Assembly (NCBI RefSeq): GCF_024611995.1
Contig: NZ_CP102510.1
Location: 186,001-250,000 of the forward strand
Reading direction: 5' to 3'
DNA from: Streptomyces sp. NBC_00162
GTDB lineage: Bacteria; Actinomycetota; Actinomycetes; Streptomycetales; Streptomycetaceae
DNA: 64,000 bases
This document shows positions 28,509 to 52,292 of this stretch, piece by piece (within the stretch, counting starts at the first letter, position 1; each line of letters opens with the position of its first letter). The notes under the pieces are model-generated. The model did no database searches. It was not told the DNA's origin and worked only from the letters and a program-made list of their open reading frames with translations. The position numbers and the translations under genes are program-made.

Positions 28509-28635
28509 GTCCTACTCCATCTCGCTGGCATCTCGGAGGCCCCTCCAGCTTCGCGACGAGCCCTGGACACGCGCTCGAGCCGACCTCGAGCGGCGCCGCC
28601 GGGCCGCCGGGCCGCGCCCGGCCCGGCCCGGTCAA

Positions 28636-29941
28636 GTCCCCCCAGTACGGCGTCGAGCGCCTTGTCCATCTCCTCGGCCGTCAGTTCCCCGGCGGCCTGG
28701 AGCGCCTCGCCGGCGTCGGCGGGGGCCGGGACCCCCTCGGGCCGTGCGAGCTCCAGCAGCCGGTCGAGCAGACCGCTCTGCCGCGGCAGAGCGGGGCTGA
28801 CACGGTCCAGTGCCCACTGGGCGGCCCGCACCGGGTCCTGCGGCGGTGCCTCACCGGAGGCGGGCTCGTCGAAGGACAGCCGCCCGTGCAGGAAGTCGGC
28901 GATGGCCCAGGGCGTCGGGGCCAGGGCGTCCAGGAAGGCGTTGGCCGCTCCGTAGTTGCCCTGGCCGGGCGAGCCCAGAGTGCCCGCCACGGAGGAGAAC
29001 AGCACGAAGGCCGCCAGGTCCAGGTCCCGGGTCAGTTTCTGCAGGTGCCAGGCGCCCATGAGCTTGGGCGCCAGGACCCGCTCGAACCGCTCCGCCGTCT
29101 GATTGCGCACGACTCCGTCGTCGATCACGGCCGCGAGGTGCACCACGCCGGTCAGCGGGTGCTCGCGCCCGGCCTCGGCCACGGCCGCGGCGACCTGGTC
29201 GCGGTCCGCCATGTCGCAGGCCACGATCCGTACGGACGCGGCGCTCGCCTCGGCCAGTTCGGCCGCCAGCTCCGCCGCGCCCGGCGCCGCCGAGTCCTGA
29301 CGCGACGTCAGCACCAGGTGGCGCACGCCGTGCCGGCCGACCAGGTGGCGGGCGACCTGACGGCCCAGCTCACCCGTGCCCCCGCTGACCAGCACCGTGC
29401 CGTGGGTCGAGCACGCGCGGGACCGTGAGGACGATCTTGCCGGTATGCCGTCCCGACGCCATGTGGCGGAACGCGCCGGGCGCCTCCCTCACGTCGTACG
29501 CGAGGTGCGGCAGGGGCTCGATCGTGCCGTCCGTGAACTCCCCGGCGAGCGAGTTGAGGACCACGTCCACACCCGTGCCTCCGGTACCGGTCAGCCACTG
29601 CGCCTCGAAGGCCGTGTCGCGGGACGAGGCGATCCGCTCGTCGGGCAGCCCGAGGCCGCGCAGCGTCTGCCACTTGGCCCGGCCGGCCGTGCCGTAGACC
29701 TCGGCGCCCAGGTGGTGGGCAAGTTGTACGGCGGCCATGCCGACACCACCCGCCGCCGCGTGGACGAGCAGTTTCTCCCCCGCCTTCAGGTCGCCCAGCT
29801 CGGTGAGCGCGTAATAGGCGGTGAGGAAGGCGAGCGGGATCGTCGCACCCTGCTCGAAGGTGAGCGTGTCGGGCAGCCGCGCCATCAGATGACCGTCGCC
29901 GCGCACCTCCGTGCCGAACGCGCCGAGCGCCAGACCCATCG
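28636..29941 (-). pseudogene. Decayed PKS remnant: parts of ER, KR, ACP end and docking tail
   Basis: Reading leftward, the segment starts abruptly inside an ER domain ([12 protein letters not shown], then AAAGGVGMA) and closely follows the ER of M4. After GEFTD it jumps to EPLPHLAYDV, an internal deletion of about 60 residues relative to M4. A frameshift near 29390 separates the ER from the KR start ([11 protein letters not shown]). The KR runs to FLDALA and then jumps straight to TPWAIADFLHGRLSF at the end of an ACP, losing the rest of the KR and the phosphopantetheine serine. The tail ([14 protein letters not shown]) matches the docking end of the gene ending at 23103, and the stop is lost by a shift. 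It cannot be functional. It is a paralogue of the 3' end of the M3-M4 gene. Confidence 0.88.
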
Positions 29942-29942
29942 T

Positions 29943-30780
29943 GAACAGGGCTGGCCGGGCTGGATGTTCGCGCTGGCCGCCGCCTCCGCGCTGCTCTTCG
30001 TCGCGTTCGGCGTCCAGCAGGGGCGCAGGCACCGCCGCGACGGATCCGCCCTGGTCCCGCCGACCCTGTTCGCCCACCGCTCGTTCCGGGTGGGCGTCGT
30101 CGTGGTCATGCTGGCCTTCTCCGGCATCACCTCGTTCTTCCTGGTGCTGACCTACCACATGCAGCTCGGCCTCGACTGGTCCGCGCTGCGCACCGCCCTG
30201 GTGACGGTGGCGTTCCCGATCGGCATCATGGCGACCTTCCAGATCGCCTGGCGCAAGGGCACCGCCAACGGGCGCAAGTTCGTCGCGATCGGCACGTCCG
30301 TGATGACGCTCGGCACCCTCGCCATGATCCTCGCGGTGTCGAGCCAGGGCGCTGGCATCGACTGGTACCACGTCGCGGGCGCCGAACTGATCGTGGGCCT
30401 CGGCATGGGCCTGTGCTCGCCGATCCTGACCAACGTGGTGCTCGGCGACATCCCGCCGCAGGACGCCGGAGCCGGCTCCGGCGTGGTCAACGCCGTCATC
30501 CAGTTTCGGTACGGCCGCGGGCATCGCCATCGTCGGCGTCATCTTCTTCAGCCTCACGGGCAGCGAGGTCGCGGGCGCGGACCGGGCCGACCGCTTCTGC
30601 GACGCCACCTCCGTGACGCTCTGGTACAACGTCGCCGTCTTCACGCTCGTCGCCCTCCTCAGCCCGCTCCTGCCCGCCTCGAAGACCCCTCAGGCCGAGC
30701 CGGAGACGACATCCACGGAGCCCGCCGCACAGACCGCGGCGCCCGCCACGAAGGACCGGCTCCTCCTTGACACCGCCTGA
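29943..30780 (+). pseudogene. Truncated and frameshifted MFS exporter remnant
   Basis: The sequence begins at EQGWPGWMFALAAAS with no start codon, corresponding to about residue 225 of the intact 14-helix exporter at 24634-26142. It continues through the second half: SALVPPTLF, then LGDIPPQDAGAGSGVVNA. An extra T near 30505 shifts the frame; the other frame continues FGTAAGIAIVGV, then SVTLWYNVAVF, to a TGA at 30778-30780. The first half of the transporter is missing. Its 5' edge abuts the PKS remnant on the opposite strand, with almost no gap. Confidence 0.88.
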
Positions 30781-33518: not shown

Positions 33519-35876
33519 CTACAGCCGGCGCAGGAGGGCGGCCCGGTCGACCTTGCCCTGCCTGGTCAGGGGCAGCTCGTCGAGCGCGATGATGCGCGCG
33601 GGGACCATGTACGACGGCAGGACGGTCCGCAGGGCGCGTGCGACCTCGGCCTTCGAAAGCGGCTCGGCCGTCGGCACGTAGAAGGCGGCCAGCGACCGCC
33701 CGCCCCGCCCCGTGGGCGCCACCACCGACGCGGCCCGGACGCCCGGGCACTGGAGGAGGGCGCTCTGCACCTCGCCCAGTTCGATCCGGTAGCCGCGCAC
33801 CTTGACCTGGTCGTCGAGGCGGCCCAGGAACTCCAGGTCGCCGCCCGCCAGCCAGCGGGCGCGGTCACCGGTGCGGTACATGCGCTCGCCGGGGCGTACG
33901 GCTCCCGGGTCGGGCAGGAACTTCGCGGCGGTGAGAGGGGCGGCCGCGGCGTAGCCCAGGGCGACGCACGTGCCGGCGATGTACAGATCGCCCTCCTTGC
34001 CCAGGGGGCAGGGCCGCAGCTCGCTGTCGAGCACGTAGTAGCGGGCGTTCTGCATCGGTTTGCCGTAGGGGATGCTCGGCCACGCGGGGTCGACGTCCCG
34101 CACCCGGTAGTCGTTGGACCAGACGGTGCACTCCGTGGCGCCGCCGAACGACACCACCTCGGCGTTCGGGAACGCGGCACGGATCTGGTCCGGGAGCGGC
34201 ACCGGGATCCAGTCGCCGCTGAGCAGGGCCAGGCGGAGCGTGTCGCGCCCGGCGGGCTCGCGGGCCTGGACGAAGGGCATGACCATGGCCAGGGAGGCGG
34301 GCGCCGAGTCCCAGATGGTGATGGCCTCCCGTTCGAGCAGGTCCACCAGCGTGTCCGGCTCGGCGAGTTCAGCCGCCGACGCCAGCCGTACGGTCGCGCC
34401 GGCGGCGAGCACGCCGAACATGTCGTAGACCGAGAGGTCGAAGCAGAACGACGTGACGAACAGGAGCTTGTCGGCGGGCCCGACCCCGTAGGTGCGGTTC
34501 ACCCAGTCGATGAGGTTCACCGCCGACCGGTGGGAGACGCAGACGCCCTTGGGCGTACCGGTCGAGCCCGACGTGAAGATGGTGTAGCAGACGTCGTCGG
34601 CCGTCGGGCCGGTGGTGAGGGGATCGGCCGGCCGGAGGCCGACGTGATGGCCGGTCCACAGCGGCTCACGCGGCGGCGCCGCACGGTCGCGGGACACCGC
34701 CGCACGGCCGCGCGACGGCTCGACGCGGATGACGGCGTCGTAGCGCTCGGCCAGTTCGCCGGTGAACTCCCCGGCCCGGCGGCGGTGGACGTCCGCGCGG
34801 GCCACCCCGGGCAGCAGTTCGGGCAGCCGCTCGACGAAGCGGGGCGGCACCCGGAGGCCGGAGTGGGCGCCGAGCCCGGGGTCGACGAGGTCGGCGAGGA
34901 CGATGACGCCGTCGTCGGCGAGCAGCCCGAGGAGCGAGTCGAGGACGCCCGTCAGGTGGTCGAGGTCCGGCAGGAACTGCACCGTACTGGCCAGCACGAC
35001 GACGTCGAACGGACCGCTCACCCGCTCGGCGGCCTCGTGCGCGAAGCACACCACGCCTTCGACCTCGCCCCCGGCGCGGGCCCCGGTCTCCTGGCTCCTG
35101 GCCACGGACACCGGTGAGGGGTCGACGGCGACGTAGCGGGACGCCTGCGGTGCCAGGGCCTCGACGATCAGACCGGATCCGCACCCGATCTCCAGGACCG
35201 AGGGCCGCTCGGCGGACGTCGCGGCCCGTACGAACCGTGCCACGTGGTCCTGGTAGCCCCGCAGGTCATCCGCGGTGAAGGGCCGCTGCGAGCGGCGGGT
35301 GTTGAAGCCCGCGGCCTCGAGCGGGTCGGGGGAGCCGGACAGGTAGTCGAAGAGGTCCGCGACGGCCTCGCGCCGGAAGGTGGCCGACCAGGAGAACTCC
35401 TCGGGGATGCCGGGGCACAGCACGTGCCGGAGCGAGGGCACCTCCCACCGGAACTCCTGTACGGAGGGCAGGGACGCGCGGTCGGTCAGCACGGCCGCCA
35501 CGTCGAGCTGGTCGAGCAGCCCGACCACCCGGGAGGCCGGCCACGCCGGGTCGAGCGGCACGTAGGAGGCGCCGGCCTTGAGCACCGCGAGCATGCCGAC
35601 GAGGGCCGAGGCGTCACGCTCGCCGTACACGCCGACGGCCGAGCCCCGGCCCAGTCCCAGCTCGCGCAGCAGCCGCGCCAGCCGGTTGGAGTGGCGGTCC
35701 AGTTCGCCGTGGGTGATGACCTGCTTGTCGGAGGTCACGATCGCCGGCCGGTCCGGGTGGCGACGGGCGGTCTCGGCGATCAGCACGGGGATCGTGGCGT
35801 CGTCGCGGAAGGGCCGCGCGGTCTCGTTCCACCTGCTCCAGGGGGCGTCCGTGACGGACACCGGCCGGGCGCTCAC
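33519..35876 (-). CDS. NRPS adenylation domain interrupted by a methyltransferase (stand-alone A-MT-A)
   Basis: The 785-aa protein activates an amino acid as aminoacyl-AMP and loads a separate carrier protein. The A domain begins normally: GELDRHSNRLAR (about 57-68), then LKAGASYVPLDP (99-110). About 270 residues holding a SAM-dependent methyltransferase (VLEIGCGSGLIVEAL, 227-241) are then inserted between core motifs a2 and a3. The A domain resumes at YTIFTSGSTGTPKG (431-444), FDLSVYDMFG (479-488), YRTGD (667-671), VKVRGYRIELGE (691-702) and LPLTRQGKVDR (768-778, with the catalytic Lys). By hand alignment to GrsA the pocket reads roughly D-L-Y-D-L-S-F-V-W, closest to a cysteine code. There is no C or PCP domain. 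GTG 35876 overlaps the carrier-protein stop (GTGA). Interrupted A domains are known from thiocoraline-type pathways. The substrate and methylation site are inference. Confidence 0.88.
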   Translation of the reverse strand: MSARPVSVTDAPWSRWNETARPFRDDATIPVLIAETARRHPDRPAIVTSDKQVITHGELDRHSNRLARLLRELGLGRGSAVGVYGERDASALVGMLAVLKAGASYVPLDPAWPASRVVGLLDQLDVAAVLTDRASLPSVQEFRWEVPSLRHVLCPGIPEEFSWSATFRREAVADLFDYLSGSPDPLEAAGFNTRRSQRPFTADDLRGYQDHVARFVRAATSAERPSVLEIGCGSGLIVEALAPQASRYVAVDPSPVSVARSQETGARAGGEVEGVVCFAHEAAERVSGPFDVVVLASTVQFLPDLDHLTGVLDSLLGLLADDGVIVLADLVDPGLGAHSGLRVPPRFVERLPELLPGVARADVHRRRAGEFTGELAERYDAVIRVEPSRGRAAVSRDRAAPPREPLWTGHHVGLRPADPLTTGPTADDVCYTIFTSGSTGTPKGVCVSHRSAVNLIDWVNRTYGVGPADKLLFVTSFCFDLSVYDMFGVLAAGATVRLASAAELAEPDTLVDLLEREAITIWDSAPASLAMVMPFVQAREPAGRDTLRLALLSGDWIPVPLPDQIRAAFPNAEVVSFGGATECTVWSNDYRVRDVDPAWPSIPYGKPMQNARYYVLDSELRPCPLGKEGDLYIAGTCVALGYAAAAPLTAAKFLPDPGAVRPGERMYRTGDRARWLAGGDLEFLGRLDDQVKVRGYRIELGEVQSALLQCPGVRAASVVAPTGRGGRSLAAFYVPTAEPLSKAEVARALRTVLPSYMVPARIIALDELPLTRQGKVDRAALLRRL

Positions 35877-36199
35877 CGGGCCGGTGCGGCCGGTGCGGCC
35901 GGCGCCCGAAGGCCCTCGTGGGCCGCCAGCGCGCCGGTCAGTTCGTTCACCGTCGGGTGGTTGAAGAAGAGCCGCAGGGCCAGGCGCACGCCGAACTCCG
36001 CCCCGAGCGCGGCCATGATCTCGGCGACCAGCAGGGAGCTCCCGCCGGCCTCGAAGAAGTCCTCGTCGTCGCCGAAGTCCTCGTGCTCCAGCGCGTCGGC
36101 CCACTGGACCCGCACCCGGGCGCGCAGCAGTTCGAGGTCCGGGCCGTCGTGGCCGATGTGGTCCGGGCTCGCCACCCCGACCGATCCGAAGTCGTTCAC
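35873..36199 (-). CDS. Free-standing peptidyl carrier protein (PCP)
   Basis: The 108-aa protein has one carrier domain: FFEAGGSSLLVAEIMAAL (about 68-85), where the second Ser of GGSS is the phosphopantetheine site, then FFNHPTVNELTGAL. The start is a GTG with GGGAG upstream. Its stop overlaps the start of the interrupted A-domain gene, so the two are translationally coupled and presumably act as an A/PCP pair. A carrier without condensation domain, encoded beside a stand-alone A domain, suits starter-unit loading onto a PKS; the candidate recipient is the first KS at 42645. The Ala/Pro-rich tail is probably flexible. Confidence 0.88.
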   Translation of the reverse strand: MNDFGSVGVASPDHIGHDGPDLELLRARVRVQWADALEHEDFGDDEDFFEAGGSSLLVAEIMAALGAEFGVRLALRLFFNHPTVNELTGALAAHEGLRAPAAPAAPAR

Positions 36200-36367: not shown

Positions 36368-37129
36368 ATGGGAACTCACACGAAAAGCCGCTGGTTCGTC
36401 GGCGTCCCCCACGAAGGCCCCAAGGAGTGCGCGCTGTACGCCTTTCCGCACGCGGGCGCCGGCGTGACCACGGTGCGGCCGCTGTGCGTCGAGCTCTCCG
36501 ACGCCTTCGACGCCTTCGCGGTACGACTCCCGGGCCGGGAGTCCCGGCTCGAGGAGCCGGCGGAGACCGCCATGCCCGAACTCGCCGACAAGCTCGCCGA
36601 CGAACTGCTCCAGCACGCCGAGGGACGGCCGGTGGTGCTGTACGGGCACTGCGCCGGCTCGACGATCGCCTACGAGGTGGCACGGCGCCTGGGCCCCGCC
36701 CGGGTGCGGGCCCTGGTCGTCTCCTCGAACCCGGCCCCCGGCAGCGTCCGCCGCGAGCCCACGTTCGCGCTGCCGCGGCCGGACTTCCTCCGGCAGGTCG
36801 TGGCGGACGGGTACCTCCCGGCGCAGCTCCTCGGCAACGAGGAACTGCTCGACATCGTCGAGCCCGCCCTGCGCGCCGACTACGAACTCATCGAGACCCA
36901 CGAGCTGGAGCTGTACGAGCGCGGCGGCGCCGAGCCCGTCGCGGTCCCGACGGTGGCCGTGTACGGCCACGACGACCACACCGTCGAACGCGCCCAGCTC
37001 GACGCGTGGTCGACGCTCACCACCGGGCCGTTCCGGCTCGTGTCGCTGCCGGGCGGCAACGACCTGCCGACCAGCCGCCCGGCGGACCTGGCGGCGGCCA
37101 TCGGCGAGGCCGTGGCGGCCCTCGCCTGA
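36368..37129 (+). CDS. Type II thioesterase-like alpha/beta hydrolase with Cys nucleophile and no catalytic His at the usual place
   Basis: The 253-aa protein is collinear with type II (editing) thioesterases of PKS/NRPS systems: YAFPHAGAG (25-33), RLPGRESRLEEP (53-64) and an acidic loop VYGHDDHTVE (198-207). The nucleophile elbow reads LYGHCAGS, so Cys95 replaces the usual serine of GHSMG. The usual LPGGHF motif reads LPGGNDLP, so Asn231 stands at the catalytic His position. His201 and His204 lie in the acidic loop and might substitute. The enzyme may be slow, specialised (acyl transfer, lactonisation) or a non-hydrolytic partner. It is divergent from the PCP/A pair and 125 bp ahead of the methyltransferase gene. 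The ATG has only a weak ribosome binding site. Confidence 0.85.
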   Translation: MGTHTKSRWFVGVPHEGPKECALYAFPHAGAGVTTVRPLCVELSDAFDAFAVRLPGRESRLEEPAETAMPELADKLADELLQHAEGRPVVLYGHCAGSTIAYEVARRLGPARVRALVVSSNPAPGSVRREPTFALPRPDFLRQVVADGYLPAQLLGNEELLDIVEPALRADYELIETHELELYERGGAEPVAVPTVAVYGHDDHTVERAQLDAWSTLTTGPFRLVSLPGGNDLPTSRPADLAAAIGEAVAALA

Positions 37130-37254: not shown

Positions 37255-38724
37255 ATGGCGCCCCTCACGAACGCGCGACAGCGCCCCACCAGCCGGTTCG
37301 AGGAGGCCGAGGCCGCGCTCCGCGCGCAGGAGGGCGTGGCGCAGGCGGCCGTGGTCTCCCGCGAGGACCGGCTCGGGGAGCGGCGCCTGGTGGCGTACGT
37401 CGTACCCGGGGTGCCGGACGCGGACGTGACCCGGCACGTGGAGAAGTGGCGCGCGGTCTACGACGAGATGTACGGCGACACCGCGGCGGACAACGGGATC
37501 GGCGAAGACTTCACCGGATGGAACAGTGCCTACACGCGCGAACCCATCCCCCTGCCGCAGATGCGCCAGTGGCGCGCGTCCGCGGTGGAGCGGGTGCGCG
37601 CTCTGGAGGCGCGCCGGGTGCTGGAGATCGGGGTGGGCTCCGGGCTGCTGCTCGGGCCGCTGGCACCGGAAACCGAGGCCTACTGGGCCACCGACTTCTC
37701 CGACGCGGTCATCGAACGGCTCGGCGCCCAGGTCGCCGCGGAGCCGCGGCTGAAGGACAGGGTGACACTGCGGTGCCAGCCCGCCGACTCCGCCGACGGA
37801 CTGCCGGCGGAGTACTTCGACACGGTGCTCCTCAACTCGGTCGTGCAGTACTTCCCCGACGCCGCCTACCTCTCGGCCGTCCTGGACGTCGCGCTCCGGC
37901 GGCTCGCCCCGGGCGGCCGGATCCTCGTCGGCGACGTCCGCAACCACGGCACCCTGCGGGAGTTCCTGACGGCCGTCCACCACGCCCAGCGCCCCGGTGA
38001 CGAGCCGTCCGCCGTGCGGGCGGCGGTCGCCCGCGCCGTGCTCCGCGAGACGGAACTCCACCTCGATCCGGGCTTCTTCACCGAGTGGGCCGACGCGCAC
38101 GACGAGGTCGCGGCCGTGGACGTCCGGCTCAAGCCCGGACCGGACGGGAACGAACTCACCCGCCACCGCTACGAAGTCGTCCTGCACAAGCGGTTGAGCA
38201 CGCCGACGCACCTCGCGGACGTCCCCGCCGTCACCTGGGGCTCGGACGTGCACCAGGTGTCCGGCCTGGAGGCCGAGCTGGCCCGGCACGGCGGCCGCCT
38301 GCGGCTGACCCGGATACCGAACGCCAGGCTGGTGAGCGAGGCGGCCGAATGCGGGGCCCCCGCCACGGCGGAAGGCACGCCCCTCGACCCGCACGCGCTG
38401 GAGACCTGGGGCCGGGAGCACGGCCGCGCCGTCCTGTGCACCTGGTCGGCCGAGGCGCCCGGCTGGTTCGAGGCGGTGATCGTGCCCGCGGACGGCAGGC
38501 ACTGCTACGGCGGGGTGTACCGGCCCCTGGACACCCGGGCCAGGCCGCTCGCCAACGTGCCCGGGGCCTCCCGCCGGGCCTCGAGGCTGCCGGCGGTGCT
38601 GCGGCGGGAACTGGCGGCCGAACTGCCCGGCCACCTGGTGCCGGACGACATCGTGGTCATCGCCCACCTGCCGCTGACCGCCGACGGCACGGTAGACCGC
38701 GCCGCGCTCCCCGAACCGAACTGA
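37255..38724 (+). CDS. NRPS-type N-methyltransferase embedded in an orphan adenylation C-terminal subdomain
   Basis: The protein is 489 aa. Residues 14-51 ([19 protein letters not shown], then RRLVAYVVP) match the part of an A domain just after motif a8. An NRPS-type methyltransferase follows, with [45 protein letters not shown] and [11 protein letters not shown]. At the end, about 440-489, comes the rest of an A subdomain with [26 protein letters not shown], where Thr stands for the usual Lys-preceding Gly-Lys of motif a10. Motifs a1-a7 (ATP and amino-acid binding) are absent, so it cannot adenylate. It resembles the back end of an A domain interrupted between a8 and a9, the position linked to backbone N-methylation. 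It probably N-methylates the aminoacyl-PCP in trans. AGGAG precedes the ATG, and the MbtH gene follows by 17 bp. Confidence 0.88.
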
Positions 38725-38741: not shown

Positions 38742-38957
38742 ATGGCAGTGAACCCGTTCGACGACGAGGACGGCGAGTTCTACGTGGTGGTCAACGACGA
38801 GGAGCAGCACGCGCTGTGGCCCACGTTCGCCGTCGTGCCCGACGGCTGGCGCGTCGTGGCCGGCCCGGCGGGGCGGGCGCGGAGCATCGCGTACGTCGAG
38901 GAGAACTGGACCGACCTGCGGCCGCGGAGCCTGCGCGAGGCGACGCCGGCGTCCTGA
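38742..38957 (+). CDS. MbtH-like protein
   Basis: The 71-aa protein carries the family hallmarks: [20 protein letters not shown], then the conserved tryptophans in LWPTF and PDGWRVV, GPAGR, and the C-terminal [11 protein letters not shown]. MbtH proteins bind A domains as chaperones and activators, so this one most likely supports the interrupted A domain at 33519-35876 and any A domain downstream of 64000. GGAGGA precedes the ATG, and it follows the methyltransferase gene by 17 bp, so they are co-transcribed. Confidence 0.95.
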
Positions 38958-39065: not shown

Positions 39066-39605
39066 GTGGGCGTTCGAAATTCCGACGTCGTCTTCGTCCG
39101 CTGGCCGGCGCAGGCGGATCTGAGAACCCGCTGCCGGCAGGAGGGCATGCCGCGCCTGCTCGTCGTTGAGGCGGGCGCGCAGCCGCCGATCAGCAACGAT
39201 CCGGTCGAGGACTGGGTACGCCCCCCGGTGTCCCGGGACGACCTCGAAGCCCGGGTCACCGTCCTGCAGAGCCGTTTCGACAGCAACCGGGTACCGACGA
39301 TCGACTCGACCGGGACCCTGAGCTTCGGCCATCACTCCATCACCGTCTCCACCACGCAAACGGAGTTGATGCGCCTGCTCGTCGACCGCTTCGGCGACGT
39401 CGTGCACCGCTCCGAGTTCGTGCAGCGCTTCGCCCTGCAGACGCTGACGCTGAACAGGAACGCGCTCGACCTGCACATCATGCGGCTGCGCCGCCGGCTC
39501 CTGCCCATCGAACTGTCCATCCGGACCGTGTGGGGGCGGGGCTACATGCTGGAGAACGCGGTGTCCGCCGAGGCCGTCCCGGCGGCGAACGCCTCCGGTG
39601 TCTGA
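39066..39605 (+). CDS. OmpR-type winged-helix regulator with a degenerate receiver
   Basis: The protein is 179 aa. The C-terminal half is a typical OmpR/PhoB DNA-binding winged helix: ITVSTTQTELMRLLVDRFGDVVHRSEFVQ, then LNRNALDLHIMRLRRRL and IRTVWGRGYML (this run is split here by position: about 93-160). The N-terminal about 75 residues look like the last part of a receiver domain (WVRPPVSRDDLEARV, like the usual KPF-DELLARV region), but the acidic pocket and phospho-acceptor Asp are absent. It is therefore probably not controlled by a sensor kinase, as for atypical JadR1-like cluster regulators. The GTG at 39066 is chosen because AGGGAGG lies 8 bases upstream; the GTG at 39060 is too close. 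It sits between MbtH and the CCR and is a likely cluster-situated regulator. Confidence 0.8.
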   Translation: MGVRNSDVVFVRWPAQADLRTRCRQEGMPRLLVVEAGAQPPISNDPVEDWVRPPVSRDDLEARVTVLQSRFDSNRVPTIDSTGTLSFGHHSITVSTTQTELMRLLVDRFGDVVHRSEFVQRFALQTLTLNRNALDLHIMRLRRRLLPIELSIRTVWGRGYMLENAVSAEAVPAANASGV

Positions 39606-39663
39606 CCGTGCCGCACCCCACAGAGCGCAGGGACCAACCGACCACTCGACACCGGAGATTACC

Positions 39664-40917
39664 TTGAACTCCTCGACGACCAGCACCCTCTACGAGGTGG
39701 GCGACCTGCCCCCGCTCGGGACCGTCCCCCGTTCCATGTACGCGTCGGTCATCCGCCCGGAACGGTACGGGGCCCCGGCTACGGCCTTCCAGACGGAGGT
39801 CGTCGAGACGCCCGAGGTGCCGCCCGGGTTCGTCCTCGTCGCGGTCATGGCCGCCGGCATCAACTACAACAACGTCTGGGCGGCCAAGGGGCATCCCGTC
39901 GACGTCGTGGCGGCACGTCAGCGGCAGGGCAGCCCGGAGCCCTTCCACGTCGGCGGATCGGATGCCTCCGGAATCGTCTGGAAGGTGGGAGAGGGCGTAC
40001 GGCAGGTCAAGGTGGGCGACGAGGTCATCGTCTCGGCCGGCCTGTGGGACGAGCACGATCCCGATGTCCGGCTCGGCGTCGATCCCATGTTCGCGGCATC
40101 GCTGAAGGCGTGGGGCTACGAATCGAACTGGGGCTCGTTCGCCCAGTTCGCCCTGGTGGCCGACTTCCAGTGTCTGCCCCGGCCCACCAGGCTGAGCTGG
40201 GCGGAATCCGCGGGATTCCTGCTGACCGGTGCGACGGCGTACCGGCAGCTCAACGGCTGGGCGCCCAACACGGTGCAGCCCGGTGACGGAGTCCTCATCT
40301 GGGGCGGCTCCGGCGGCCTCGGCTCCATGGCCATCTCCCTGACCCGGCAGATGGGAGGCAGGCCCATCGCCGTCGTGTCCTCACCGGAGAAGGCCAAGTA
40401 CTGCCTCGACCTGGGTGCGGCGGGCGTCATCGACCGGACCAAGTTCAGCCACTGGGGACGCGTGCCCGAGGCCGGCACCGAGGAGCACAAGCGGTGGACC
40501 GCCGACCTGCGGGCCTTCGGGCGGGAGATCTGGGACATCCTCGGTGAGAAGGCCTCTCCCAAGATCGTTTTCGAGCATCCCGGCAGCGACACCATCCCCA
40601 CGTCGGTCTACGTGTGCGGCACGGGCGGGATGATCGTGATCTGCGGGGCCACGTCCGGCTTCAACGTGGACGTCGACCTCAGGTACCTGTGGATGAGGCA
40701 GAAGCGGCTCCAGGGATCCCATTTCGCCAATCCGCGCGAGTGCCTCGCCGTGACCCGCCTCGTCGACATGGGCCTCCTCGACCCGCACCTGGGGCACACG
40801 TACGCCTTCGAGGAGATCGGCCGGGCCCATCAGGACCTGCTGGAGGGCGTGCAGGCACCGGGCAACTCGGCCGTACTGGTCGGTGCGACGAACAATCCCG
40901 GTCTCGGGGACCGCTGA
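39664..40917 (+). CDS. ccr: Crotonyl-CoA carboxylase/reductase (CCR)
   Basis: The 417-aa enzyme belongs to the medium-chain dehydrogenase superfamily. It reductively carboxylates an alpha,beta-unsaturated acyl-CoA with NADPH and CO2 to an alkylmalonyl-CoA; with crotonyl-CoA the product is ethylmalonyl-CoA. CCR-typical blocks are present: MAAGINYNNVWAAKG near 80 (the Asn used in CO2 binding), WGSFAQFALV, the NADPH loop IWGGSGGLGSMAI, and KRLQGSHFANPRE with the conserved His. The start is a TTG with GGAG 7 bases upstream. It follows the regulator by 58 bp. Its location implies that at least one module uses a larger extender, yet none of the eight visible AT domains carries an obvious ethylmalonyl-type motif. 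Confidence 0.93.
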   Translation: MNSSTTSTLYEVGDLPPLGTVPRSMYASVIRPERYGAPATAFQTEVVETPEVPPGFVLVAVMAAGINYNNVWAAKGHPVDVVAARQRQGSPEPFHVGGSDASGIVWKVGEGVRQVKVGDEVIVSAGLWDEHDPDVRLGVDPMFAASLKAWGYESNWGSFAQFALVADFQCLPRPTRLSWAESAGFLLTGATAYRQLNGWAPNTVQPGDGVLIWGGSGGLGSMAISLTRQMGGRPIAVVSSPEKAKYCLDLGAAGVIDRTKFSHWGRVPEAGTEEHKRWTADLRAFGREIWDILGEKASPKIVFEHPGSDTIPTSVYVCGTGGMIVICGATSGFNVDVDLRYLWMRQKRLQGSHFANPRECLAVTRLVDMGLLDPHLGHTYAFEEIGRAHQDLLEGVQAPGNSAVLVGATNNPGLGDR

Positions 40918-42553: not shown

Positions 42554-42644
42554 GGACCGGGTGGCCGGCAGCGGCCGCCCCCGGACCCCGGCACCGCCGG
42601 CGCGGACCACCGTGCCTTTCACCTGCCCCAAGTGAGGATGCGTG

Positions 42645-45600
42645 ATGAACGCCGACGACATTGCCATCATCGGACTCGGCTGCCGCCTCCCCGGCGGGAT
42701 CGATTCCCCCGAAGCGCTCTGGCAGGGCCTGCTGGACGGGATCGACGCCATCGGCGAGGTCCCCCCGCAGCGGTGGAGAGCCGATGACTGGCATGACGTC
42801 GACCCCTCGGCGCCCGGCAAGATGACGACCCGCTGGGGCGGGTTCCTGGACGACGTCGCGGGGTTCGACGCCGCGTTCTTCGGCATCTCGCCCACCGAGG
42901 CCGCCCAGATGGATCCGCAGCAGCGGGTGGCCCTGGAGGTCGCCTGGGCCGCGGTCGAGGACGCCAGGATCCGCACCGACCGGCTCGCCGAATCGGCCAC
43001 CGGCGTGTTCTTCGGCACCATGTGGCAGGAGTACCACCTGGCCACCGGGGCGTCCGCCGGTGAGATCCGCACGCACACCGCCATCGGCACGGACACCTCG
43101 ATCATCCCGGCCCGCATCGCGTACGCCCTCGACCTGCGCGGCCCGGTGATGTCCGTCGGCACCGGGTGCAGCTCGTCCCTCGTCGCCATCCACCAGGCGG
43201 TCCGGAGCCTGCGCTCCGGAGAGTCGGACCTCGCGCTGGCCGGCGGGGTCAGCCTCATCCTCCACCCCCACACCACCGTCGCGATGTCCAAGTTCGGCAC
43301 GCAGAACCCCGACGGGCAGTGCCGCGCCTTCGACGCGGACGCCAACGGGTACGTACGGGGCGAAGGCTGCGGCGTCGTCGTCCTGCGCCGGCTCGGCGAC
43401 GCCCGGCGCAGCGGCGACCGGATCTACGCGGTGATCCGCGGCAGCGCCGTGAACAACGACGGCACCACCGACGGCCTGGCCACCCCGAGCGCCGACACGC
43501 AGGCCGAAGTGCTGCGCTCGGCCTGGCGGGAGGCCGGAACGGACCCGGGCCTGGTGTCGTACGTGGAGGCCCACGGCACGGGGACCCGCCGGGGCGATCC
43601 GATCGAGGCCGCGGCCCTGGGCAGCGTGTTCGGCGACGGCAGGAAGACCGGGGAGCCGCTGCGGATCGGGTCGGCCAAGACCAACTTCGGCCACCTCGAA
43701 CCGGCCGCCGGAGTGCTCGGCGTACTCAAGACCTCCCTGGCGCTCTTCCACGGCGAGCTGCCCCCCAGCCTGCACTTCCGCCGGCCCAACCCGGACATCG
43801 ACTTCGACGCGGCGAACCTGGCCGTGGTCACCGACCGGCAGCCGTGGCCCCAGGGAGCGCGCCTGGCCGGAGTCAGCAGCTTCGGCTACGGCGGTACCAA
43901 CGCCCACCTCGCGCTGGCCGGGCCGCCGCCGGCGCGGGCCGCCGAGGTCCGGGAACCCGCCGCGCGGACGCGGATCCCCTGGGTGCTGTCGGCGCGCTCC
44001 GAAGAGGCCCTGCGGGAACAGGCCGGCAGGCTGCGCGCCCACCTCGCCGCGCACCCCGGCCTGTCGGCCGCCGACGTCGGCTTCTCCCTGGCCACCACCC
44101 GCGCCGACCACGAGTACCGGGCCGTCCTGCTCGGACGGGAGACCGCGGACCTGAGCCGGGGGCTGGAGGCGCTCGCGTCGGGAGCCCAGGTGCCGGACCT
44201 GGTCGTCGGATCCGGCCGCGGGCGCGGCCCGGTTCTGATGTTCGCCGGACAGGGTGCCCAGTGGGCCGGCATGGCCGCGGAACTGCTCGACTCCTCACCG
44301 GTGTTCGCCGAACGGTTCGCGCAGTGCGAGGCGGCGCTGGGACCGTTCGTGGACTGGAAGCTCACCGAGGTGATCGGGAACGCGGACGCCCTGGAACGGG
44401 TGGACGTCGTACAGCCCGCCCTGTGGGCGATGATGGTGTCCCTGGCCGGGCTGTGGAAGCACTTCGGCGTCGACCCGGACGTCCTGCTCGGGCACTCGCA
44501 GGGCGAGATCGCCGCGGCGTGCCTGTCCGGCGCGCTGTCGCTCGAGGACGCGGCGGCCGTGGTGGCGCTGCGGGCCCGGGCCATCCGCCGCGGTCTGGCT
44601 GGCCGGGGCGGCATGGTCTCCCTGGTGTGCTCGCGGGCGGACGCGCTGCGGCTGACCGGGCGGTGGCCGGACCGGCTGTCGGTGGCGGCCGTCAACGGGC
44701 CCCGCAGCACGGTGGTCTCCGGCAGCCCGGAGGCGCTCGAGGAACTGCTCGCGCACTGCGGATCCGCCGGGATCCGCGCCAAGCGGGTCCCGGTCGACTA
44801 CGCCTCGCACTCGGCGCAGGTGGAGGCCATCCGCGAGGACATCCTGACCGACCTGGCCGGTATCCGGCCGCGCCCCGGGGCTGCCGGCTTCTTCTCCACC
44901 GTCGACGTCGGCCGGATCGACACGGCGACCCTGGACGCGGGCTACTGGTACCGGAACCTGCGCTCCACGGTCGAACTCGACGCGTGCGTGCGCGAGCTGG
45001 CCGCCGAGGGCCGCAGCGTGTTCATCGAGTGCACCCCCCACCCCGTGCTCACCATGGGCGTGGAGGAGAGCGCCGAGGTGCGCACCGTCGGAACGCTGCG
45101 CAGGCAGGAGGGCGACCGCTTCCTGACGGCCCTGGCCGAGGCGTACGCCGCCGGGGTGGACGTCGACTGGAGCCGCGCCTTCGAGCGGGCGAACACCGTG
45201 GACCTGCCCACGTACCCCTTCCGGCACCAGCGGTACTGGATCGACGGCGCGGCGGACGGCGGCGGGCCGGCGCAGGACGCGCCGTTCTGGGACGCGGTGG
45301 GCCGCGAGGACCTCGACGGGGTGGCCCGCACCCTGGGCCTCGACCGGGACGCCCTCGCCCCCGTCCTGCCCGCCCTGGCCTCCTGGCGCAGGCGGCGCAC
45401 CTCGGAGTCCGTCGTGGACGGCTGGGAGTACAAGGCCGCCTGGAAGGAGGTTCCCGGACCGGCGGTGCGCCCGGGCGACTGGCTGGTCCTCGCGCCCGCC
45501 GGCGACGCCTGGGCGCGCTCGGTGGCCGGGGCCCTGACCGGACAGGGCCTGCGCGTCACCCTCATGGAGCTCGAACCCGGCCTCGACCGGGGTGCGCTCG

Positions 45601-48600
45601 CCGCGCGGCTGCGCGGCACGGCCTGCGACGGCGTGCTCTGCCTGCCGGTGGCGCAGGACGGGCCGTACACCGGGTACACGGGGGTTCCCGCGGGCTACGC
45701 GGCGACCCTGACCGCCGTGCAGGCGCTGGGGGACGCCGGCGTGAGCGCCCCGCTGTGGTGCGTGACGCGGGACGCCGCCGCCGTCGCGGACGAGGCGGTC
45801 GACCCGGAGGGGTCGCTGGTGTGGGGGCTGGGGCGGGTCGTCGCCCTGGAGCACTCCGAGCGCTGGGGCGGCCTCATCGACCTGTCCTCCGCGTACGACC
45901 CGGGGGTACTGGCCGGGGTGCTCACCGGCGACCACGGCGAGGACCAGGTCGCGATCCGGGGTTCCGTACCGTACGGCCGCCGGCTGGTCCGCGCCGCCGC
46001 GGGTCCGGCCCGCGGCTGGAGCCCCACGGGGACGGTGCTGATCACCGGCGGAACGGGCGCGCTCGGCGCCGAGGTCGCGCGCCGGCTGGCCGGTCAGGGC
46101 GCCGAACGCCTGGTGCTGGTCAGCCGGAGCGGGCCGGACGCCCCCGGGGCGCGGGCCCTCACCGCCGATCTCCAGCGGCTCGGGGCAGGCGTCGAGATCG
46201 TCGCCTGCGACGTCGCCGACCGGGAAGCGGTCCGCGGGCTCGTCGAGCGGACCCGGCCCGACGCGGTGGTGCACGCCGCCGGAGCCCTGCACGACGGGCT
46301 CGTCCAGGACCTCACCCCCGACCGGGTCGACGCGGCGCTGCGGGTGAAGGCGCAGGGAGCCTGGAACCTGCACGAACTCGCCCCCGGACTGGACGCGTTC
46401 GTGCTCTTCTCCTCGTGGGGCGCGACCGTCGGCGTCCCGGGCCAGGGCAACTACGCGCCCGGCAACGCCTATCTGGACGGCCTGGCAGCGCTCCGCCACA
46501 GCCAGGGGCTGCCCGCGACCTCGGTGGCCTGGGGCCCGTGGGCCGGCGACGGCATGGCGCGGGGGCCGGTGAAGGAGGTCCTCGACCGCCACGGCGTACC
46601 CGCGATGGCACCGGATCTGGCCCTGCTGGCCCTGGACCGGGCCGTGGCGTCCGCGGAGCCCTGCGTCACCGTGGCGGACGTGCGCTGGGACCGGTTCCGC
46701 ACGGTGTTCACGGCCACCCGCCCCAGTGCCCTGCTGGCCGACCTGCCCGACGGCCGGGACGCCTCGGCCGTCCAGGAGCCCGCGTTCCGGCGGCGCCTGG
46801 CCGAACTCCCCGCGGACGGCCGGATGCGCGCCGCACGGGAGGAGGTCCGGGCGCAGACCGCCCTTGTGCTCGGCCACCCGACGCCGGAGGCGGTGGACGT
46901 CGAGCGGACCTTCAGGGAACTCGCCTTCGACTCGGTCCTCGGCGTCGAACTGCGCAACAGGCTGGGCGCGGTCACCGGCCTGCGGCTGCCCACCACGCTG
47001 ATCTTCGACCACCCCACGCCCGCGCAGGTCGCCGCGCACATCCTCGACGCGTACCTGCACGAGGAGCCCGACCCGGCCGCCGGGGAGACCGCCCCGGCCG
47101 CCCGTACCGCCACCGCCACCCCGGCGGCCGCCCCCGAGGCCGCCCCGTCGGGTGCCCCCGAGGCCGGCGCCGGCGAGCCCATCGCGATCGTCGCCATGAG
47201 CTGCCGGTTTCCCGGCGGAGTACGCGACCCGGAGGGTTTCTGGCGGCTGCTCTCCGACGGCGGGGACGCCATCACGCCGTTCCCCGAGGACCGGGGCTGG
47301 GACCTGTCCGCGCTGTACCACCCGGATCCCGACCACCCCGGTACGAGCTACGTCCGCGAAGGCGGCTTCGTGGCCGCCGCCGACTTCGACCCGGAGTTCT
47401 TCGGGATCAGCCCCCGCGAGGCACTGACCATGGACCCGCAGCAGCGGATCCTCCTGGAGGGGTCCTGGGAGCTGCTGGAACGGGCCGGGATCGCACCGGC
47501 CGCGCTGAAGGGCAGCGACACCGGGATCTACCTGGGCACCAACGGCCAGGACTACGCCTCGCTGGGCACCCCGCACGGCTCCGAGGGGTTCGGGCTCACC
47601 GGAAGCGCCGCCAGCGTGGTCTCCGGCCGCGTCTCCTACGCACTGGGCCTGGAGGGGCCGTCGGTCACGGTGGACACCGCGTGCTCGGCCTCGCTGGTCG
47701 CCATCCACCTCGCCGCGCAGGCCCTGTCGCGGGGCGAGTGCGCGATGGCCGTCGCCGGCGGCGCCACCGTGATGGCCACACCGAGACTGTTCGTCGGATT
47801 CAGCCGGCAGCACGGCCTCGACCCCCTCGGACGGTGCCGCGCCTTCTCGGACGGGGCCTCCGGCACGGCACTGTCCGAGGGCAGCGGACTGCTGCTGCTG
47901 GAGAAGCTGTCCGACGCACGGCGCAACGGGCATCCGGTACTGGCCGTGATCCGCGGTTCGGCCGTCAACCAGGACGGCACGTCCAACGGGCTCACCGCGC
48001 CCAACGGCCGGGCCCAGCAGCAGGTCATCCGCAAGGCTCTCGCCGCGGCGGGGCTCGAAGCCTCCGACGTGGACGTCGTGGAGGCCCACGGCACCGGCAC
48101 GACGCTGGGCGATCCCATCGAGGCACGCGCACTGCAGGCCACCTACGGCGCCTCCGGACGGCCGGTGTGGCTGGGCTCGGTGAAGTCCAACATCGGGCAC
48201 ACGCAGGCGGCGGCGGGCGTGGCCGGAGTGATCAAGATGGTGCTGGCCATGAACCACGGCACAGTGCCCCGTACCCTGCACGCCGACACCCCCTCCCGCC
48301 ACGTCGACTGGTCGGAGGGCTCCCTCCGGCTCGTCACCGGCCCCGTCGCCTGGGACGCGGACGGCCCGCGGCGGGCCGGCGTCTCCTCGTTCGGCATCAG
48401 CGGTACCAACGCCCACCTGATCCTCGAACAGGCCGCCGGGGCCGAGGAACCGCCGGCAGGGGCCGAGGAACCGGCCGCCGGCCCCCGTCCTGCCCTGCTG
48501 CCCTGGACCCTGTCCGCGCGGACCCCGGAAGCCCTGCGCGAGCAGGCGTCCCGGCTGGCCGTCCGGGTCGGGACGCACCCCGGCACCGACCCGGCCGACT

Positions 48601-51600
48601 TGGCGTTCTCCCTGGCCACCTCGCGCACCTCCTTCCGGGAACGCGCCGTCGTCGTCGGCCGCGACACCGGCGACCTGCTCGCCGGGCTGCGCGCGATCAC
48701 CGACGGGGCGTCCTCGGCGTCCGTGGTGGAGGGTTCGGCGGACGACGGCCGGACGGCGTTCGTCTTCGCCGGGCAGGGAACCCAGCGTGCGGGCATGGGC
48801 GCCGATCTGCGCGCGGCGTACCCGGTGTTCGACGCCGCGTGGCGGGAGATCCGCGCCGCACTCGACCCGCACCTGCGCCGTCCGCTCGCCGAGGTCATCG
48901 ACGACCCGGACGCGCTGCGCCGCACCGAGTTCACCCAGCCCGCGCTGTTCGCCTTCGAGGTGGCGGTGTTCCGGCTCCTCGAGAGCTGGGGGCTCACGCC
49001 GGACCTGGTGCTCGGACACTCCGTCGGCGAGCTCTCCGCCGCACACGTGGCGGGCGTGCTCTCCCTGGAGGACGCCTGCGCGCTGGTCGCCGCCCGCGGC
49101 CGGCTGATGCAGGCCCGGCCGGACACCGGCGTGATGCTCGCCCTCCAGGCCGGCGAGCACGAGGTGGCCCCGCTGCTGTCCGCGCGGGTGCACCTCGCCG
49201 CGGTCAACGGCCCGCGGTCCGTGGTGATCGCCGGTGACGCCGACGCCGTGGCCGAGGTGGCCGGGCGGTTCACCGGACGCCGCACCAAGCGGCTCAACGT
49301 GTCCCACGCCTTCCACTCCGCGCACATGGACGGCATGCTCGACGAGTTCCGGAGCGTGGCCGAGCGGCTCACCTTCCACCCGCCGCGCATCGCGCTGGTG
49401 ACGAACCTAACGGGGCGGACCGTCACCGACTGCGGTCCCGACCACTGGGTGCGCCAGGTGAGGCAGCCGGTCCGGTTCGCCGACGCGATCCGTACCGCGC
49501 GCGGCGAAGGCGTCACCCGGTTCCTCGACATCGGCCCCGACGGAACGCCCGCCGCCATGATCGAGGACTGCCTCGACGGCGACGACGCCGTCGTGGTCCC
49601 GACCCAGCGTGCCGACCGGTCCGGTCCCGAGGCACTGACCCTCGCGGTCGCCAGGGCGCACACGGCGGGTGCCGGGCCGGACTGGGCCCCGCTCCTGGGC
49701 GAGGGCCGCCGCCGAGTCGACCTTCCCACCTACGCCTTCCAGCGCAAGCGCTTCTGGCCGGACGGCTCAGGCTCCGGAGCCGGGCACCCGTGGCTGACCG
49801 AGGTCACCGAACTGGCCGACGGCGGCTGGGTGCTGTCCGGCCGGGTGTCGGCGTCGTCCCAGCCCTGGCTGGCCGACCACGTGGTCTTCGGCACCGTCGT
49901 CGTCCCCGGCACCGCGCTGCTGGACATGGTCCTCGCGGGCGCCGGCCAGGCCGGAGCGGCCAGCGTGGGCGAGCTGACCCTGTCGCGGCCCATGGTCCTG
50001 GAGGACGCGGTACACGTGCAGGTCAGGATCGGCCCCGCCGACGGCGGACGGCGACCGGTGACCCTGCACGGCAAGGCGGAGGGCACGGGCACCTGGAGCA
50101 CCCACGCCGAGGGCGTGCTGGTGGACGCCTTCGGCCCGGAGCCCACCGACTGGTCGGTGCCCGCGCTGCCCGCCGTGGACCTCGCCGGCTTCTACGAGGG
50201 CTTCGCCGCCCAGGGCGTCGACTACGGCGCCGCCTTCCACGGCGTGGCCGAACTGCGCGGGCAGGGCGGGACGGCCTGCGGCGTGGTCCGGCTGCCGGCC
50301 GGCGAGCCGGGCGGATTCGGTGTCCACCCGGCCCTGCTGGACGCGGCCCTCCAGGTGATGCGCGCGGCGGTCCCGGCCTCCGCCGAGGCCCAGCTCCCCT
50401 TCCAGTTCACCGACGTCCGCCTGTACGCCACGGGAGCCACCGAGCTCCGCGTCCGGGTCGACGTCCGCGACGACGGGATCCGGGCCGCGATCACCGACCC
50501 CGCCGGGGCGCCGGTGGCGTACGTCGGCGCCCTGCGGCTGCGTCCGGTCAGCGCCGGCCTGCTGCGTGCCGCGCTCACCGTTCCCGACCTCTACCGCGTG
50601 GCCTTCCGGCCCGTGCCTCAGGTGCCCGCGGTGGCGGAGCCGGTCCGGGTCCTGGGCAGCGGCCCGGTGTCCGAGGCCCTCGGCGTGACGCCGTCCGAGA
50701 CGGTCACGGAAGACGGCCCGCGCCGGATCCTGATCGACGCCACCGCGCTCGCCGAGGGCGTCGCCGCCGCCCACGAGTCGGCCGCACGCGCGCTGGACCT
50801 GCTGCGCCGACTGGTGCCCCGCAGGGGCCTCGAGCTCGTGTGGATCACCCGGGACAGCATCGCCGCACGCCCCGGGGACCGGGTGCGCGGCCTCGCCCAG
50901 GCCCCCCTGTGGGGGCTGCTGCGGGCGGCGCGGCGCGAGCACCCGGAGGCGGCCCTCCGGATCGTCGACTGCGACCGGATCGACGCCCCCACCCTGTTGT
51001 CGGCGCTGTCCGTGTCCGGCGAGCCCGAACTCGCCGTCAGGGGCGGGGAGTTCCTCGCGCCCCGGCTGACCGCGGCGGGCGCGGTCGGTGCGGCCGGTGC
51101 GGCCGGCGCCGCGGCCGGCGCCGGCTCCGTGGCCGACGGAACGGTGTTGGTCACCGGCGGCACCGGCGAACTCGGCAGGGCGGTCGCCCGGCACCTGGTG
51201 ACCGAGCACGGGGTCCGCGACCTGGTGCTGACCTCGCGCAGCGGCCCCGGGAACCCGGAAGCCGGAAGCCTGGTCGCGGAACTGACCGGAGCCGGTGCGC
51301 GATCCGTCCGGGTGCTGGCCTGCGACGTCTCCGACCGGACCCAGGTGGCCGGCGTACTGTCCTCGGCGGGCGACTGGTCGGCGGTACTGCACCTCGCCGG
51401 CGTCCTCGACGACGGCCTGCTGCTCGACTACGACGAGCGACGTCTGCGCACGGTGCTGGCCCCCAAGCTCGACGGGGCCGCGCACCTGGCGGAACTCACC
51501 GCGGATCTGGGCCTGTCGGCGTTCGTGCTGTTCTCCTCCGTCTCCGGAACCCTCGGCTCCGCCGGGCAGGGCGCGTACGCGGCGGCCAACGCCTACCTGG

Positions 51601-52292
51601 ACGCCCTCGCCGCCCGCAGCGGCGGGACCAGCCTGGCCTGGGGGCTGTGGGAGCAGGCGGGCTTGGGCATGACCGCACACCTCACGGAGGCCGAACTGGG
51701 ACGCCTGCGCAGGCAGGGCATCGCACCGCTGCCCGTCGCCAAGGCCCTGCGGCTGCTGGACCGCGCACTGCGCTCGCCGGACGGCAACCTCGTCCCCGTC
51801 AGGCTCGACCTCGCGGCGCTGGACGGCGAACCCCCGGCGCTGCTGCGGGGACTGGTCCGGCCGGCGCTGCGCCGCGCCGGCGAGGACCCGGCGGGCGGCG
51901 GGCTGCGGAAGCGTCTGGAGGGCCGGACGCCCGAGGAGCAGGCCGCCTCGGTCACCAGGCTGGTCCTGGAGGAGGCCGCCGTCGTCCTGGGGCTGCCCGG
52001 GCCCGGAGGGCTCAGGAGCAAGGCCGTACTGAAGGACCTCGGCCTCGATTCGCTGATGGCCATGGAGCTGCGCCGCAGGCTCGCGAACGCCGCCGAGGTG
52101 CCGCTGCCCGCGAGCCTCGCCTTCGACCACCCGACCCCGGCGGACATCGCGGAGCTGCTGATGCGGCGCATGGGGATCGCTCGAGCGGAGTCCGGGACGG
52201 AGCCGGAGGCCTCACCGGACCCGGCCGCGCCGGCGCCGGCCCGCTCGGTCGCCGAGATCGGCGCCGAGCTCGACGCCCTCCTCGAACTCTAG
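42645..52292 (+). CDS. Type I modular PKS, two modules: M5 KS-AT-KR-ACP and M6 KS-AT-DH-KR-ACP
   Basis: The 3215-aa subunit starts directly at the KS fold ([15 protein letters not shown]) with no docking coiled coil, fitting a first extension subunit fed by a free carrier. M5: KS Cys175 in GTGCSSSL (Gly replaces the usual Ala) with EAHGTGT and a C-terminal KTNFGH; AT Ser618 in GHSQG with YASH at 719 (methylmalonyl); KR with GGTGALG and LHD in place of LDD; ACP Ser1430 in AFDSVL; no DH. M6: KS Cys1680 in [10 protein letters not shown] Ser2126 in GHSVG with HAFH at 2221 (malonyl); DH His2412 in [12 protein letters not shown] with LDD; ACP Ser3136 in GLDSL. The C-terminal helix [15 protein letters not shown] is a docking tail. 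ATG 42645 with GAGG 7 bases upstream is preferred over GTG 42642. Confidence 0.95.

Follow-up and report, generated by a model that had tools for sequence, protein, structure and literature searches.

A 64,000-nucleotide stretch of the Streptomyces sp. NBC_00162 genome (contig NZ_CP102510.1, positions 186,001 to 250,000; hereafter the window) encodes a stand-alone adenylation (A) domain interrupted by a methyltransferase, which we call A-MT, next to a free peptidyl carrier protein (PCP). We consider it probable that both belong to an off-line cassette that prepares N,S-dimethylcysteine and shuttles it, by a logic resembling that of SyrC, CysB and LgnA, to a mid-chain module devoid of its own A domain. 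In the model, A-MT, probably together with an MbtH-like protein, would activate L-cysteine, methylate its sulfur and load it onto the free PCP, where the residue would be N-methylated by P0002, a free-standing N-methyltransferase (NMT). A type II thioesterase (TEII)-like enzyme with a Cys nucleophile would then take the aminoacyl group to the PCP of an A-less condensation (C)-PCP module in the polyketide synthase (PKS) PKSf, which would condense it internally, after the polyene part and before the ketide and glycine units that come next. The A-MT cassette is real and conserved, its internal role and N,S-dimethyl chemistry are likely, and the arrangement may be new. The sequence itself establishes the component genes and their conservation, the missing A domain of the acceptor module and the replacement of Ser by Cys; the substrate, the two methylations with their order and the transfer step are inferred from it. 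The window lies on a 388,840-nt contig (C2) of a 9.02 Mb genome in two contigs, and the genes concerned are listed here (KS, ketosynthase; AT, acyltransferase; KR, ketoreductase; DH, dehydratase; ACP, acyl carrier protein; TE, thioesterase):

33519..35876, minus strand: A-MT, stand-alone A domain split by a methyltransferase between motifs a2 and a3 (insert at about 34.6-35.48 kb), code DLYDLSFVW
35873..36199, minus strand: free PCP, 108 aa, GTG start, Ser54 in GGSS, overlapping A-MT by 4 nt
36368..37129, plus strand: TEII-like alpha/beta hydrolase (Pfam, RifR alignment) with Cys95 (GHCAG) and Asn231, proposed aminoacyl shuttle
37255..38724, plus strand: P0002, free-standing N-methyltransferase set in the C-terminal scaffold of an A domain, without the A core
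38742..38957, plus strand: MbtH-like protein; the near-identical NZ_CP130721.1 annotates it as MbtH family protein
42642..52292, plus strand: PKSe, KS-AT-KR-ACP, KS-AT-DH-KR-ACP; first KS at 42654-43901
about 52331-76021, plus strand, beyond the window from 64000: PKSf, two KS-AT-DH-KR-ACP, C-PCP without A, KS-AT-ACP, C-A-PCP, KS-AT-KR-ACP, TE
62939-64168, plus strand, past the window end from 64000: C domain of the A-less acceptor module in PKSf
about 64349-64588 (L012:349-588), outside the window: PCP of the A-less acceptor module

An interrupted A domain with a coupled carrier gene

A-MT is a 785-aa protein whose GTG start overlaps the stop codon of the PCP gene. Pfam (33519-35870) recognises in it two AMP-binding stretches, Methyltransf_12 at aa 226-323 (5e-14) and AMP-binding_C at aa 700-773. 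Motif a2 lies at aa 99 and motif a3 at aa 431, and in our alignment A2 the two are separated by 320 residues, compared with 62-84 in seven uninterrupted relatives, which corresponds to an insertion of around 236-258 residues. The original prediction, made on the letters of the DNA, had proposed that a methyltransferase of about 270 residues splits the A domain between a2 and a3; the interruption is borne out by Pfam, motifs and alignment, though the insert is somewhat smaller. As in TioN, an S-adenosylmethionine-dependent methyltransferase thus sits between a2 and a3 of an A domain that is otherwise complete. Two further expectations also held: Pfam finds no condensation domain in the protein, and the carrier is a separate, coupled gene, with PF00550 matched at 8e-16 in the 108-aa product and a 4-nt overlap. 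Structure prediction, which had been suggested as a check, gave a good AlphaFold model (pLDDT 84.5, pTM 0.85) whose top matches in the PDB are A-domain structures (TMt up to 0.88). Because this layout is repeated in 26 distinct loci, it is not a product of chance.

Conservation of the cassette and of its putative acceptor

In a draw of 394 genomes from the family, the methyltransferase insert was matched at 1e-15 in 29; in ten of these (our own included) the match scores at least 104 bits and falls in a frame of 781-933 aa. At 1e-22, matches were obtained in 11 of 392 genomes drawn from the genus and in two of 394 drawn from the class, namely our own genome and G128, which was already among the family-draw genomes (G and L numbers are our labels for genomes and loci). 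The matches listed from a scan of GTDB genomes include Streptomyces sp. L-9-10, S. europaeiscabiei 96-14, S. omiyaensis, Kitasatospora sp. GP82, Streptantibioticus ferralitis, S. calidiresistens, S. bobili, Catenulispora pinisilvae and Fontibacillus panacisegetis. Streptomyces sp. NBC_01296 and NBC_01546 have near-identical copies on linear plasmid records, as does S. albidoflavus a copy with 77% identity in the methyltransferase insert.

Altogether, 26 distinct A-MT loci were examined (20 + 6; S. albidoflavus appeared twice in the first set). A free PCP is placed directly upstream of A-MT in 11 of them: the window, G248, S. albidoflavus, G366, G394, G395, G396 (S. omiyaensis), G036 (Kitasatospora), G135, G397 and G990. 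Besides the lineage of the window, the cassette occurs in three further contexts, those of S. omiyaensis, of Kitasatospora and of the G135/G397 pair.

The acceptor by which a functional shuttle is recognised, that is, a C-PCP module with a missing or inactive A domain in the same cluster, is present in the window's own line. Downstream of the window, Pfam detects a PCP and then a KS, the AMP-binding domain being absent, and the same holds for the S. albidoflavus homologue. A C-PCP module either without an A domain or with a degenerate one was found in all eight of the 11 clusters that could be read; the acceptor is unreadable in G248, where the stretch ends in PKSe, and in G395 and G990, where the contigs end. 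The module is A-less in the window, S. albidoflavus, G394 and G366. In G135, an A-less C-PCP-E protein (E, epimerisation domain) adjoins NMT, PCP, A-MT and the Cys-type TEII; G397 has the same gene order, and its C protein (1003 aa versus 1005 aa in G135) gives no A-domain match by tblastn, the only search made there. Judged from motifs only, the A domain is degenerate in the two remaining cases: A4 of S. omiyaensis has HTSGTSGPPNAV at a3 and misses PKG (module C-A4-NMT-PCP-TE), and A2 of Kitasatospora sp. GP82 shows RSSGVTGRPTAY, GGAD and VVELRG (module C-A-PCP-E). As a separate observation, S. omiyaensis (L139:4229-13906 plus the upstream non-ribosomal peptide synthetase (NRPS) frame) encodes a thiocoraline-like synthetase whose first (A1) and last A domains both look degenerate.

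A TEII-like enzyme as candidate shuttle

The TEII-like gene (36368-37129, plus strand) is divergent from the PCP gene, and in the nucleophile motif GHCAG of its product Cys95 replaces the catalytic Ser. A TEII with the motif GHC[AGS]G lies 0.1-2.3 kb away in 11 of 11 loci with the PCP and A-MT pair (the motif of S. omiyaensis was read separately from the others). Among the 15 A-MT loci without the pair none has a Cys-type TEII within 10 kb, the flanks being uneven (around 10 kb for several loci, little beyond 1 kb on one side of L063, and a contig of 10.3 kb in G1017); farther away, one is found at 11.7 kb in G026 and at 17.5 kb in G1037. The fetched loci contain 44 distinct TEII motif sites, 32 with Ser and 12 with Cys, and all 12 Cys sites belong to A-MT loci. 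G135 also encodes, close to a different group of NRPS genes, a further TEII-like enzyme whose motif is GHCSG (L146:4704 onward).

Would a shuttle be required at all? A-MT might charge the A-less PCP of PKSf directly in trans, in the manner of TioN, the free PCP then serving as a side carrier or as a platform for methylation, and the TEII-like enzyme for editing only. Accounts of TioN mention no dedicated shuttle (PMC4052310, PMC11355689), and an A-less module of capreomycin synthesis is reported to be loaded in trans by another A domain (PMC12400406). The window's TEII-like protein, having no catalytic His, would also fit this alternative. We nevertheless regard direct loading as unlikely, since the free PCP adjoins A-MT in 11 loci, always with a Cys-type rather than a Ser-type TEII, and Ser would be expected to persist in an editing enzyme. 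The same uniformity of Cys (11 of 11) makes a purely editing role of the TEII-like enzyme less likely.

A probable internal residue rather than a starter

The methylated residue had originally been predicted to prime a polyketide, and this claim is not supported. Our tree of 34 KSs (FastTree, midpoint root, without printed support values) joins the KSs that follow PCPs in PKSa, PKSf, S. albidoflavus and G366 in one clade with the motif TACSTGL, including the KS directly after the A-less PCP of PKSf. The first KS of PKSe (KS1, TGCSSSL) is not of this PCP-/aminoacyl-accepting type; it groups with ordinary polyketide KSs and with KS1 of PKSb, its closest relative, which is preceded by an N-terminal ACP. 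From the tree, the A-less module seems to deliver an amino acid and KS1 seems not made for one. Together with the A-less C-PCP in PKSf, the tie between the Cys-type TEII and the PCP and A-MT pair, and the A-less or degenerate-A modules elsewhere, this makes it likely that the methylated residue is internal.

We judge it improbable that the free PCP provides KS1 of PKSe with the methylated amino acid as its starter unit, even though PKSe lacks a loading module and any docking or carrier domain at its N terminus, so that priming in trans would be required, and although the free PCP is, besides the methoxymalonyl-type carriers, the sole unassigned carrier seen in the S. albidoflavus cluster, which looks complete. 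Apart from the position of KS1 among polyketide KSs, away from the TACSTGL KSs, such priming would leave the A-less C-PCP module unloaded and would not explain why, in S. omiyaensis, Kitasatospora, G135 and G397, the cassette stands beside NRPS modules whose A domains are absent or degenerate. Service to PKSa-d, a second assembly line nearby, is unlikely as well: the S. albidoflavus 303-353 kb and G394 stretches hold the cassette with PKSe/PKSf, and PKSa-d was not seen in either stretch, the rest of both records not having been searched.

Delivery of an internal residue by the TEII-like enzyme is thus the reading that we prefer, and several points weigh against it. Asn231 (PGGN) aligns with the catalytic His of RifR, and this His is kept in nine of the 11 cassette TEII homologues, Asn being present only in the window and the near-identical G248. 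With GHCAG and PGGN, the enzyme departs from the Ser-Asp-His triad and GHSxG motif of LgnA. Because LgnA, a biochemically demonstrated TEII shuttle, uses Ser, Cys is not needed for a shuttle role. Seven of the 11 cassette loci represent a single lineage (PKSe/PKSf or P0002-type context), and within it G366 looks partly degraded. G1037, which has no PCP and A-MT pair, also contains an A-less C-PCP, and the count of eight out of eight covers pair-bearing clusters only. Finally, PKSe opens directly with a KS, and we found no loading module or starter supply for it, which leaves KS1 unprimed.

The substrate of A-MT

Read by motif alignment rather than by structural superposition on GrsA, the code of A-MT reproduces the predicted D-L-Y-D-L-S-F-V-W, and the pattern D-L-[YF]-[DN]-[LFY]-S-[LM]-[VI]-W is present in all 18 relatives of alignment A2. 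The textbook Cys code is DLYNLSLIW, from which A-MT differs at residue 278 by having Asp in place of Asn. Cysteine is the likely substrate and our best guess given the code, the TioN/MarQ precedent and the position of the S. omiyaensis homologue. The code is close to that for Cys apart from D278, and the thiocoraline A domain interrupted between a2 and a3, already invoked for side-chain methylation, is the nearest precedent for S-methylation. The S. omiyaensis A-MT is 78% identical to that of the window and stands beside a Gly / NMT / NMT assembly line, in which the A2 code fits Gly and A3, accompanied by an NMT, has a Cys-like code (DLFDFSLVW, with D278) at the N-MeCys position of the thiocoraline-like line.

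Uninterrupted relatives give a mixed picture. An ordinary C motif is located upstream in six of 22; of the other 16, 13 were re-examined (L082, L084 and L105 were left out), and DxxxxDxxS, a cyclisation-type motif, was found upstream in 11 and not in two. The four relatives with aligned codes DLFN[FY]SLVW all have the cyclisation-type motif upstream, whereas the three with D278 (L067, L070 and L125, all aligned) follow ordinary C domains, which counts against certainty about Cys; the argument from cyclisation domains is weaker than it may look. D278 and the six relatives behind ordinary C domains could point to another small polar residue, such as serine or 2,3-diaminopropionate, with an O- or N-methylated side chain. 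We rate this as improbable, since A3 of S. omiyaensis likewise has D278 at an N-MeCys position and the cyclisation-type motif precedes 11 of the 22 relatives, the four DLFN[FY]SLVW ones among them.

A free-standing N-methyltransferase

P0002 is composed of a C-terminal piece of an A domain, a methyltransferase and an a10-like end, without an A core. Nearly its whole length aligns with residues 450-924 of PDB 5WMM (720 bits), which is labelled only as an NRPS in the match and which we take to be the A4-M4 domain of TioS. By homology it is an A8-A9 type backbone N-methyltransferase (Mb of TioS); it is not nested in a complete A domain, of which only the C-terminal scaffold is left. The last module of S. 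omiyaensis (C-A4-NMT-PCP-TE) has an NMT that shares 75% identity with the one in P0002, and its A4-NMT part aligns with 5WMM across 889 residues (1304 bits). In G990, a frame of 1250 aa corresponds to P0002; it comprises a decayed C domain (HRTAADG), an A domain that has lost the a3 Lys (TSGSTGTPAGV) and the NMT, without a PCP. This protein looks like an intermediate, and P0002 like a thiocoraline-type module dismantled step by step, with C and A core gone in the window.

With a free-standing N-methyltransferase at 37255-38724, which the original prediction had missed, methylation of both N and S becomes likelier than that of sulfur only. The original suggestion of a side-chain-methylated, possibly S-methylated residue therefore keeps its precedent for the sulfur and loses ground as a single modification. 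Either order of methylation may apply here, because TioN is reported to act after N-methylation, that is, in the opposite order (PMC4052310). Kitasatospora sp. GP82 also encodes a P0002-like free-standing methyltransferase fused to an MbtH-like domain (L042:13628-15307).

Neighbouring genes

P0002 is followed by the MbtH gene, a regulator, a crotonyl-CoA carboxylase/reductase, a cytochrome P450, PKSe and PKSf. The C-A-PCP module of PKSf has a Gly-like A code (DILQLGMVW). The reductase gene is located as follows:

39598..40917, plus strand: crotonyl-CoA carboxylase/reductase (TIGR01751, 567 bits)

On the other side of the cassette, window positions 28043-30644 (minus strand) hold fragments of a KR (PF08659, 3e-51) and of a zinc-dehydrogenase (enoylreductase-like) in different frames; adjoining P450 and MFS matches on the opposite strand, they resemble a PKS relic. 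The related line PKSa-d extends over window coordinates -29786 to 23103 (L010, L011 and the window), and is accompanied by genes of methoxymalonyl type and by those for a glycosyltransferase and a glycoside hydrolase of family 1. It ends as PKSf does, with KS-AT-ACP, C-A(Gly-like)-PCP, KS-AT-KR-ACP and TE, and its PKSb (L011 to window position 145) begins with ACP-KS-AT-AT-KR-ACP, that is, with two consecutive ATs.

Implications

A broader proposal, for which our confidence falls somewhat short of probable, is that PCP, A-MT, Cys-type TEII shuttle and excised NMT constitute a transferable supply cassette for N,S-dimethylcysteine, fitted to at least four unrelated lines with A-less or decayed-A modules, a polyketide-peptide hybrid among them, and that Cys-type TEIIs are a shuttle group distinct from LgnA and SyrC/CmaE. 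If true, nature would provide a portable route for placing a doubly methylated sulfur residue in the middle of a PKS/NRPS chain with no in-line A domain, together with four natural contexts for comparison and a test of how a methyltransferase nested in an A domain can be excised and remain functional. The cassette would also allow a test of whether the Ser-to-Cys change in TEII marks a switch from hydrolysis to transfer, which would make it a simple flag for genome mining.

Comparison with known systems

In a thiocoraline study, two bifunctional A domains reportedly methylated L-cysteine on N and S in sequence. P0002 resembles module 4 of TioS, if 5WMM is indeed its A4-M4, in aligning to residues 450-924, and differs in being free-standing, without A core, C or PCP. 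A search of one open literature library with limited terms did not turn up any publication on a polyketide containing N,S-dimethylcysteine.

It is an established logic that an amino acid is activated and tailored off-line and then shuttled to a module whose A domain is missing or inactive. In cystobactamid synthesis (CysH/CysB/CysK-M3), activation and methylation of an amino acid take place on a separate module before it is shuttled to one whose A domain is inactive (PMC7966384), much as we propose here; CysB is a homologue of SyrC/CmaE, whereas our candidate is TEII-like, and the chemistry differs. In the syringomycin system, SyrB1/SyrC/SyrE, off-line tailoring on a separate A-T (T, thiolation domain) also precedes shuttling to a split C-T (PMC8949500), the tailoring being halogenation there and putative methylation here; this likeness is drawn from description and not from sequence. 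Transthiolation is described for bripiodionen as well (PMC10956176). In legonindolizidine synthesis (LgnA/LgnB/LgnD), an enzyme with the TEII fold takes the aminoacyl group off its separate carrier and hands it to a C-T module that has no A domain (PMC8748450); the enzyme's Ser-Asp-His triad is intact, whereas the window enzyme has a Cys nucleophile and Asn in place of His. For A-MT itself, the relevant comparison is with the A-Ms proteins TioN (thiocoraline) and MarQ (maremycin), also interrupted between a2 and a3 (PMC11355689, PMC8949500). They share with it the position of the methyltransferase and, if A-MT takes cysteine as is likely, a Cys-type substrate, and TioN is also a stand-alone A-M; the window differs from both in its fixed adjoining free PCP and Cys-type TEII and in the polyketide-peptide hybrid that A-MT probably serves.

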